A program made the position numbers and the translations under genes. From an uncultured delta proteobacterium (GTDB lineage Bacteria; Myxococcota_A; Polyangia; Polyangiales; JADJMO01): DNA of 33,872 nt. The stretch spans positions 1-33,872 of the forward strand of contig CAIXWQ010000683.1 in assembly GCA_903923175.1 (NCBI GenBank), given 5' to 3'. The notes beneath the pieces are model-generated. The model was given only the letters and a program-made list of their open reading frames with translations. It was not told the origin of the DNA and made no database searches. Shown in pieces: positions 27,295 through 29,542 of this stretch (the first letter of the stretch is position 1; the number at the start of each line of letters is the position of its first letter).

Positions 27295-27774
27295 TCAAGG
27301 CGCGCTGCCGGCCGCCCCGCGCGGCAGCTGCAGCACGATCTCGCTCTTGCGGATCAGCCCGTACTCGGTGCGCGCCACGTGCTCGATGGTGCCGATGTCG
27401 TCCTTGAGCTGCTTCACCTGCGTGCGAAGCCGGCCGATCTCGCGCTCGAGGGCGCGGTTCTCCGCCTCGACCTGCTCGACGTCGCGCTCGAGCGACCGCA
27501 GCCGCGGGAGCCCTTGCGGCTCGAAGACGAGCACGGGCACGCCGATGATGGCGACGCCGAGGATGAGGAGCGGGAGCGAGTCGCGGCCGGCCGACACGAG
27601 CCGGGCGAAGAGGATCGAGGGCGCGAGCCGTGCCCTGGGCGAGCCAGAGGGGGTCGGCGCAGGCGCGCCGCGGGAGTCTCGGGCGTCATGCGCGTCGCGA
27701 GAGCCGCGGGCGCGCTGCGCCTCGTAGTCCTTCGGTGCGACGCGCGGCATCGGCCGCAGATTCCCACGAGCCAT
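27295..27774 (-). CDS. FtsB/DivIC-like septum formation protein
   Basis: A 159-residue bitopic protein of the division-site FtsB/DivIC family, which bridges FtsL and FtsQ and helps activate septal wall synthesis. After a ~60-residue Arg/Ala/Pro-rich cytoplasmic part comes one membrane helix (about 66-86). A coiled coil follows (about 90-130, LERDVEQVEAENRALEREI), then the family end motif ARTEYGLIRKSEIVLQL. The N-terminal extension is longer than in typical FtsB (about 100 residues). The start is uncertain between ATG 27774 and the in-frame ATG 24 bp downstream; neither has a clear ribosome binding site. The gene is isolated from known division genes here. Confidence 0.88.
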   Translation of the reverse strand: MARGNLRPMPRVAPKDYEAQRARGSRDAHDARDSRGAPAPTPSGSPRARLAPSILFARLVSAGRDSLPLLILGVAIIGVPVLVFEPQGLPRLRSLERDVEQVEAENRALEREIGRLRTQVKQLKDDIGTIEHVARTEYGLIRKSEIVLQLPRGAAGSAP

Positions 27775-27800: not shown

Positions 27801-27967
27801 TTCAATGCGCGCGGAGCACGTCCGACTCGTCGGACGTGTCCGTGCTCTTCGATCTCCGTGGACTTCGTCCACTCCGGTTCAATGCGCGCGGAGCACGTCC
27901 GACTCGTCGGACGTGTCCGTGCTCTTCGACCTCCGTGGACTTCGTCCACTCCGGTTCAATGCGCGCG
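27801..27967 (-). repeat. 77-bp tandem direct repeat with internal hairpins, downstream of pxpBC
   Basis: Two full copies, 27801-27877 and 27878-27954, differ at one base (T at 27853 vs C at 27930). A 13-bp partial third copy (27955-27967) includes the last codons and stop of the pxpB-pxpC gene. Each unit contains ACGTCCGA-CTCG-TCGGACGT (perfect 8-bp arms) inside a larger GAGCACG...CGTGCTC pairing, and GTGGAC-TTC-GTCCAC. It therefore looks as if the 3' end of the gene plus its flanking hairpins was tandemly duplicated. Confidence 0.9.
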
Positions 27968-29542
27968 CAGCGTCACCGTGGCGCCGGGAGGGGTGCGGGC
28001 GAGGCGGGCGAGCGCGCTCGATCCGAGGACGCCCAGCAGCGGGTAGCCGCCGACCGTCGGGCCGTCCGGGCCGATGATCAGGGGCCGGCCGTCGGGCGGC
28101 AGCTGGATCGCGCCGGGGACCAGCGGCCGCGAGCGGGCGAGCGCGACGCCGCCCGGGAGCGGCTCGCCGTCGAGGCGGATGCCGACCCGGTCCGAGCGGG
28201 CGTCGACCCGGAAGCTCGCCCGCGAGAGGGCGGCCAGCGCCTCCATGGGTGCGTCGGGGTGGGGGGCGAGCTCCAGGACGCCCCCGAGCTGCAAGGGCTC
28301 GGCGTGCTCGCGGCGCGGAGCGGGGCGCGCGTCGGCGTCTCCGAGAGGGATGACGTCGCCGCGGACGAGAGGACGCCCGTGAAACCCGCCGAGCCCGGCG
28401 AGCACCAGCGTCGCGCGCGACCCGAGCACGCGCGCGACGTCGACGCCGCCGGCGAGCGCGAGGTAGCGCACGGCTGCCTGCGCGCGCGCGACCTCGATCG
28501 GCTCGCCGTCGCGCGCTAGGCGCGCGGGCTCTCCGTCGACCGAGTACGTGACGTCGCCGATGGCGCGAAACAGCGCGCCGAGTCGCGGCAGCTCGATCGC
28601 GGCCTCGTCCGCTCGGCCGCCGACGGCCGCGAGCGCGCGCGCGAACGCCTCGCGATCGAGCGGCCCGGAAGCGGGGACCGCCGCGCTGGCGAGGCCGGGG
28701 CGCCCCGCGTCCTGCACTGTCGCGAGCGGCCCGATGCGCTCGACGACGAGGCCGCGGCCGACGCCGGGGCGCGCGTCGGTGGCGTGGGGCGTGACCGCGG
28801 CGGGGGCGCGCGGCGCGGGCTCGAGGGCGCGGTCGGGCGCGATCTCCGCGATCTCGAACCGCACGCGATCGCCCGCGCGGAGCAGCGCGGCGGGCGTGCG
28901 TGCCGGGTCGAAGAGCGCGGGACCGTCGACGCGGCCGAGGAGGCTCCAGCCGCCCGGGCTCGCGAGGGGGTAGATGGCCGAGCGCCGTCCGGCGATGGCG
29001 ATCGCGTTCGCCGGGACGCGCGGCCGCGGCGTCGCGCGGCGGGGCGTCTCCAGCCGCGGATCGAGCCCTCCGAGGTAGGCGAAGCCGGGGAGGAACCCGA
29101 CGATCTCCGCCTCGTAGGTGGCGCCCGCGTGCAGCGTCACGAGCTCGTCGATCGACAGGCCGCGCGCCTCCGCGACGCTCCGCAGGTCCGGGCCGTCGTA
29201 GATCGCCGCGAAGACGTGCGTGCGGGGCGCGTCGAAGCCCGCGTCGCCTGGGCTCGTCGCGACGCAGAGGCGCGCGCGGATCGCCTCGCGCGTGGCGTCG
29301 CTCGCGCCACCGGGCGTCATGGCGACGGTCACGCCGTAGCCGGCGACCACCTCCGAGACGCCGGGCAATCCGTCGAGCGCCGCGGCGACGCATCGCGCCC
29401 AGGTTGCGGCCGCCGCGTCGTCGAGCTCCTCCTCGAGCGCGATCTCGATCGCCCGCTCGCCCAACGGCTGCACCCGCGCGCGGCGCGATACGCCTGCTTC
29501 GCTCTTCGCGCTCTTCGCGCTCTTCGCGTTCACCGTGCTCAC
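27956..29542 (-). CDS. 5-oxoprolinase subunits B and C fused (PxpB-PxpC)
   Basis: 528 residues combining two proteins usually encoded separately. Residues ~16-230 match PxpB/KipI (PF02682 type: LGERAIEIALEEELD, GFLPGFAYLGGLD). Residues ~240-528 match PxpC/KipA, the biotin-carboxyltransferase-like fold (VERIGPLATVQDAGRPG, RPLIIGPDGPTVGGYP). With PxpA they hydrolyse 5-oxoproline to glutamate using ATP, removing a toxic metabolite. GTG at 29542 overlaps the pxpA stop by 4 bp (GTGA), indicating translational coupling; a second GTG 9 bp downstream is possible. The N-terminus has a 9-bp repeat encoding AKSAKSAKS. The C-terminus ends in the 77-bp repeat region. Confidence 0.9.
   Translation of the reverse strand: MSTVNAKSAKSAKSEAGVSRRARVQPLGERAIEIALEEELDDAAAATWARCVAAALDGLPGVSEVVAGYGVTVAMTPGGASDATREAIRARLCVATSPGDAGFDAPRTHVFAAIYDGPDLRSVAEARGLSIDELVTLHAGATYEAEIVGFLPGFAYLGGLDPRLETPRRATPRPRVPANAIAIAGRRSAIYPLASPGGWSLLGRVDGPALFDPARTPAALLRAGDRVRFEIAEIAPDRALEPAPRAPAAVTPHATDARPGVGRGLVVERIGPLATVQDAGRPGLASAAVPASGPLDREAFARALAAVGGRADEAAIELPRLGALFRAIGDVTYSVDGEPARLARDGEPIEVARAQAAVRYLALAGGVDVARVLGSRATLVLAGLGGFHGRPLVRGDVIPLGDADARPAPRREHAEPLQLGGVLELAPHPDAPMEALAALSRASFRVDARSDRVGIRLDGEPLPGGVALARSRPLVPGAIQLPPDGRPLIIGPDGPTVGGYPLLGVLGSSALARLARTPPGATVTLRAH

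Follow-up and report, generated by a model that had tools for sequence, protein, structure and literature searches.

Tandem copies of a putative mobile element downstream of pxpC

The window (the whole stretch of 33,872 nucleotides analysed) contains a tandem pair of 77-bp units in which a small mobile element of about 77-80 bp, encoding no protein, very probably occurs twice in head-to-tail orientation; insertion would take place 3' of a TGA, with a further TGA supplied by the element. The features pointing to this are evident in the sequences compared, namely the dispersal of the unit with constant boundaries, an empty counterpart at two sites, covarying pairs in hairpin 2, and a second tandem array. 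Judged from these data, the pair is real and recent and belongs to a new family of small mobile elements, which is ordinary in kind (a non-autonomous repeat). The family is unusual in its stop-codon address and in a hairpin cap shared across the order. A literature search, partial in coverage, found no title describing such an element.

The two units occupy positions 27801-27877 (copy B) and 27878-27954 (copy A, adjoining pxpC) and differ at a single base (T at 27853 and C at 27930). The array lies between a fused pxpB-pxpC gene (CT_C_D and CT_A_B; 27956-29536) and an ftsB/DivIC-type septum gene (27295-27774), all on the minus strand, on which the unit reads CCGGAGTGGACGAAGTCCACGGAGRTCGAAGAGCACGGACACGTCCGACGAGTCGGACGTGCTCCGCGCGCATTGAA. 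The pair scored 328 in Tandem Repeats Finder (the runner-up array of the window scored 81), and copies A and B scored 104.8 and 100.2 bits, respectively, with the covariance model described below. A further 13-bp match to the 3' end of the unit (27955-27967, minus strand) includes the TGA stop codon of pxpC (27956-27958), which is the insertion target. Beyond the shared TGA, the end of pxpC also matches the unit end (GCGCGCAT), and an empty site in a second genome has GCGTTCGC there; by construction, gene and element have no more than the stop-codon TGA in common. The first-pass annotation had described two full copies differing at one base, a 13-bp partial copy over the last codons and stop of pxpC, two strong hairpins per unit, and a recent tandem duplication, and all four observations were borne out.

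Dispersal, boundaries and empty sites

The genome of the window (G000) is a 10.7-Mb draft of 1422 contigs, and G001 was the sole other genome of the genus searched. A DNA search of G000 with the 77-mer, a check proposed in the first-pass annotation, found the unit at further places with 77-90% identity. A covariance model built from ten copies (alignment A1) identified nine loci in G000 at E ≤ 1e-4 (contigs C683, C634, C1407, C787, C181 (twice), C321, C740, and C268), two of which are tandem arrays, together with two weaker loci (C533 and C944, the latter cut by the contig end) and three loci in G001. The second tandem array, on C634, comprises approximately two units and runs off the contig start; by eye, ORFs resembling IS66-type accessory genes are present near this array (L063, 2043-2680). 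One older copy is common by position to G001 (C493) and G000 (C732) and has decayed in the latter (model E 0.066). An exact-pattern scan of named species genomes yielded one locus, in Myxococcales bacterium BP4.bin47, which is identical to the G001 C493 locus over the stretch compared. Compared with mobile repeats in general, the number of copies is small. No match was found among the plasmids, phages, and viral contigs searched, and plasmid or phage cargo was ruled out on this basis. As judged from these matches, the unit is non-coding, dispersed, and delimited by boundaries of its own.

Intact copies read TGA^ACCG...(A)TTGA, where the caret marks the 5' boundary; the exceptions are a 3' end of AGTGA in one copy and of ATGGA in another, and the base following ACC varies. 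Terminal inverted repeats are absent from the two ends (5' ACCG.. and 3' ..ATTGA; alignment A1). Between iscS and iscU, the occupied site of G001 reads ...GCTCACTGA^ACCGCAGTGG...GCGCATTGA^TGCCG... and the empty site of G000 reads ...GCGCACTGA^CACCG..., the distance to the iscU ATG being 25 nt in both genomes. Between pxpC and ftsB, the window reads ...GACGCTGCGCGCGCATTGA^two units^ATTGCCCTGAAAACTTGG, and the empty site of G001 reads ...GACGCTGCGCGTTCGCTGA^AATGGCCTTCAAATTTGG before ftsB. These two empty sites therefore indicate that the net insert consists of whole units placed 3' of a TGA. The two empty sites show TGA to be the fixed target motif. A TGA is present on both sides of the insert, and these sites are compatible both with duplication of the target and with a TGA that belongs to the element.

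The pxpC-ftsB gene pair is also present without the element in G002, G003, and G004. A search of G001 for pxpC gave no match, although the stop region before ftsB is kept; on contig C751 (L096, about 2150-2250), pxpC-like last codons seem to be left before ftsB, as if the pxp operon had been lost up to its stop codon. It had been proposed earlier that the array is a duplicated gene end with its 3' structures. This interpretation was rejected on the evidence of the dispersed copies and empty sites: the unit occurs at many unrelated genes, and the pxpC-ftsB junctions of relatives lack it.

Stop-codon address and gene context

Nine copies have an intact 5' end, and in four of them the first bases coincide precisely with the stop codon of the gene upstream, as called by a simple gene finder (trained on six ORFs of the window, one without a family check). 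The upstream genes are pxpC, a gene on C1407, a membrane-fusion gene located before its RND pump gene, and iscS in G001. Not counted were L053, L054, L057, and L064, whose 5' ends have decayed, L063, whose 5' end falls outside the contig, and L067, which lacks its 5' half. In the 104.7 kb examined, stop codons account for 60 of the 1812 TGAs, or 60 of the 449 outside coding sequence, and the chance of the observed starts was 0.0001 (4/9) or 0.014 (4/8), depending on the null used, in a test that was post hoc and made after the data were seen.

Copies reside inside operons, between iscS and iscU and between the membrane-fusion (MFP) and RND pump genes. One copy, oppositely oriented, occupies the leader preceding the L28 gene, and a truncated copy is in frame within the linker of an E2 acyltransferase. 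The names iscS, iscU, L28, pump, and E2 were read from the protein sequences and not from a family search. On C1407, the downstream gene now starts at a GTG formed by the element end, pointing to an insertion where stop and start codons overlapped as ATGA. ARAGORN detected no tRNA in 13 of the 14 loci holding G000 or G001 copies; the exception is the 14th (L067 in G001; C696, 1983-2140), where a partial copy consisting of hairpin 2 alone follows tRNA-Gln and a T-rich terminator in the same orientation.

The element would insert directly 3' of a TGA and carry its own TGA, leaving the stop codon of the target intact and operons unbroken. If this is true, the stop codon serves as a near-harmless address that is duplicated by the mobile repeat, and insertion between operon genes is tolerable and adds hairpins between cistrons, as in the iscS-iscU and pump operons.

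Predicted secondary structure

Each unit is predicted to form two hairpins on either strand and folds better than shuffled sequences (RNA z-scores of -4.0 to -4.7). Hairpin 2 (minus strand, 27886-27922 in copy A and 27809-27845 in copy B) has a variable, covarying stem, in which six pairs are changed on both sides among the ten copies. For the whole structure, 90% of cells are paired in these copies, compared with 26-39% after sliding the partner. Hairpin 1 hardly varies (ACC-GNA-GTGGAC-GNA-GTCCAC-GGA-GGT), and its cap motif, CGGAGTGGACGAAGTCCACGGAG, was located by motif search at 27931-27953 in copy A and 27854-27876 in copy B (minus strand). Alignment A1 contains only losses and zero compensatory changes in this hairpin, where row L002 is misaligned. 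Both C-GNA-G loops and internal loops of the GGA/GGA type are known for their high stability when DNA is single-stranded. We take the tandem junction, ATTGAACCGG, to resemble the complement of the tRNA T-loop (GGTTCAA).

Rfam 15 at gathering cut-offs gave no matches in the window. A known RNA family was ruled out, the only models matched in relatives being those of tRNA (10 loci) and of tRNA and tmRNA (12 loci at E ≤ 0.5). A CRISPR-type array was ruled out by the lack of spacers, and an integron attC site was ruled out by comparison with the consensus only, the ends being direct and not inverted repeats.

A shared cap and tRNA-end relatives across the order

Weak covariance model matches in other families share hairpin 1. 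Chance folding was rejected as an explanation for all weak matches outside the genus, and some of them (e.g. L028, L030, and L044) are chance or unclear. The cap motif CGGAGYGGACN{2,4}GTCCRYGGAG was present in 16 of 183 genomes of the order, with counts including 27 in G031, 10 in G052, 8 each in G053 and G011, and 4 in G000; the reversed motif, used as a control, matched once. All four exact cap copies in G000 belong to the window element family, and the exact cap sequence of the window is also found in G052 and G070. In the relatives, the stem beneath the cap is longer and varies in sequence, and a further hairpin comes after it, whereas the outer stem of the window family is ACC/GGT only. 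Among the 40 cap stretches of alignment A5 (selected from the 52 motif stretches outside G000, i.e. 56 less the 4 of G000, with near-duplicates left out), 86% of cells pair, compared with 29-38% when slid, and the covariation score is 0.379, compared with at most 0.126; several rows that fold poorly (L122, L130, L131, L172, and L185) were kept.

ARAGORN identified a tRNA or tmRNA in 11 of the 56 cap-relative loci; Rfam matched only tRNA in 10 loci and, at E ≤ 0.5, only tRNA/tmRNA models in 12, none of the families covering the cap elements. In 10 of the 11 loci, the cap element lies directly past the tRNA or tmRNA 3' end on the opposite strand, a count that leaves out L176 (an unusual, doubtful 86-nt tRNA-Gly on the same strand). 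The tRNA 3' end is copied beyond the cap in seven of these ten, with scores clearly above every control, and the copy starts 19-21 nt from the end, in the T-loop (CGAGTCC...). The copy in L128 is marginal (10 bp), and none is seen in L132 (tmRNA) or L133. Three such insertions are present in G016, each in a different tRNA. The tRNA-Asp site is occupied in G016 and G008, whereas G056, G066, and G036 have a single tRNA end there, their downstream sequences being too dissimilar for alignment by eye.

Caps in head-to-tail order were likewise found at spacings of 149 bp (G006) and 123 bp (G011); the two 123-bp elements of G011 (L052, 1300-1660; C104) are located within short repeats of the (GGAACG)/(GGCTACG) type. 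Several other arrangements were observed. Cap-like elements are situated among the tRNAs of a dense tRNA array in L047 and L026 (G012 C469), and in L159 (G031 C78) two unlike hairpin elements are in tandem behind tRNA-Asn, each followed by a tRNA 3' end copy. The cap element of G031 is approximately 190 bp long and present in 20 or more copies, and many contigs break inside it (C1, C15, C16, C38, C52, C57, C67, C82, C95, C102, C111, and others).

The sequences fit either descent of the window family from the cap class or mere sharing of the cap. Integrases using tRNA T-loops exist. A broader reading, which we offer tentatively and regard as possible rather than probable, is that the window element represents the short-stem, stop-codon branch of an unrecognised, order-wide, protein-free class of mobile elements with a common cap (a GGA/GGA internal loop under a C-GNA-G hairpin), a covarying stem, and a second hairpin. 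In the relatives, the T-loops of many different tRNAs, and that of tmRNA, would serve as insertion sites, with the tRNA 3' end being copied in the process; an enzyme not of the Y1 type would read the folded cap, and re-insertion at the regenerated target would build tandem arrays such as that of the window. If the mobile-element interpretation is right, the cap shared across families of the order would provide a starting point for finding the enzyme responsible, and the relatives at tRNA ends would allow tests in genomes that are more complete.

Mode of movement and origin of the pair

The window element is too short for a transposase. Because its ends are not inverted repeats, it may be mobilised in trans, the enzyme being one of the host or of another mobile element and recognising the single strand in its folded form (hairpin 1 with its conserved cap, and hairpin 2). 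The second copy could have arisen either by renewed insertion, using the TGA that the first element retains at its end, or by slippage between the 13-bp direct repeats flanking one unit, and both routes fit.

A more specific proposal is that of a REP/REPIN- or PATE-like element whose folded single strand is mobilised by a Y1 (HUH) transposase, either IS200/IS605- or RAYT-like, which we consider conceivable but rather doubtful. The anatomy of PATEs fits (no inverted ends, palindromes near both ends, a fixed short target, head-to-tail tandems, and non-coding sequence; PMC3119063), REPs likewise supply stop codons (PMC3733652), and REPINs also form tandem clusters (PMC3116915), as far as the excerpts of these reports describe them. 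Y1_Tnp genes exist in the genus, with one match in G000 and three in G001 among the 14 in G001-G004 (one match being under the cut-off). However, the element was absent from all 15 Y1_Tnp loci examined in G000-G004: scores ranged from 15.0 to 18.5, approximately the shuffle maxima, and exceeded the best of 20 shuffles at three loci by at most 1.5, compared with 29.5-73 for real copies. The sole Y1 gene found in G000 (L009) and that of L109 are flanked by other repeats and not by the unit. In addition, no Y1_Tnp match was detected in four of eight cap-bearing genomes (G052, G053, G016, and G008), two of which are estimated to be 100% complete. Loss or non-assembly of an IS200/IS605-type partner is possible.

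Other repeats and hairpins were seen at these transposase genes. L009 (G000 C1363, 1300-2100) and L109 (G001 C451) contain Y1/RAYT-like genes with repeats (such as AAGCCCGCTGAAGCGGGCTCCT near L009) that are a separate REP-like family of the genus, and L104 (G001 C402, 1423-1887) encodes an IS200-like tnpA of 154 aa adjoining GC-rich hairpins.

It is unlikely that the pair arose solely as a local replication-slippage duplication of a vertically inherited unit, i.e. a fixed structured RNA or gene-end element. The 13-bp direct repeats would suffice for slippage, one old orthologous copy is common to G000 and G001, and the covariation of hairpin 2 would suit a structured RNA, but the two clean presence/absence sites between G000 and G001 and the unrelated flanking genes argue against this explanation. 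A terminator array ending the pxp operon, as the first-pass annotation had considered, is more improbable still. Strong hairpins do directly follow the stop codon, but no terminator-like sites were found at the array, no T-tract follows the stem, and copies occur within operons (iscS-iscU and membrane-fusion gene-pump gene), in the opposite orientation in the L28 leader, and in frame in the E2 gene. The same annotation's alternative of an expanding repeat holds in the sense of a mobile element, with a second array on C634. An assembly artefact in which a copy was collapsed or invented is very improbable: the assembly is a draft of 1422 contigs, and contig ends do fall within an array (start of C634) and within a copy (end of C944), but the copies of the window differ at one base, the longest exact repeat within the array is 52 bp, which an assembler using a longer word could resolve, and arrays occur elsewhere too.

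Comparison with known systems

The putative mobile element of the window resembles the PATEs of Haloquadratum, which, in the excerpted account, have no inverted ends, contain palindromes near both ends, are non-coding and short (52-bp terminal-only versions), and use a short target motif (PMC3119063). According to the same excerpts, PATE palindromes match IS605-type elements of the same genome (PMC3119063), whereas none of the 15 Y1_Tnp loci matched the window element (best score 18.5). The window element also differs in its host phylum, GC-rich sequence, stop-codon target, and conserved GGA/GGA cap.

REPs and REPINs, as portrayed in excerpts of two reports (PMC3116915, PMC3733652), are likewise dispersed extragenic palindromes with tandem clusters and ends that supply stop codons. 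The copy number of REPs is usually over 100, according to the part of the source considered (PMC2817692), compared with nine loci at E ≤ 1e-4 in G000. The window element has about ten copies rather than hundreds and two unlike hairpins, and neither a GTAG/CGTC tag was noticed nor a linked RAYT found.

RUP, NEMIS/Correia, and YPAL are, in the excerpted description, also short, non-autonomous, dispersed hairpin repeats, and YPAL additionally has no TA ends and possesses internal repeats (PMC2229807). The window element differs from such MITE-like repeats in having no terminal inverted repeats and in inserting 3' of a TGA.

Known integrative elements use tRNA and tmRNA 3' ends. The cap relatives differ from these in their size (about 150-260 bp start to start), in having no integrase gene inside, and in occupying several tRNAs per genome, and resemble them in lying at tRNA/tmRNA 3' ends and, in most cases, duplicating the tRNA 3' end.
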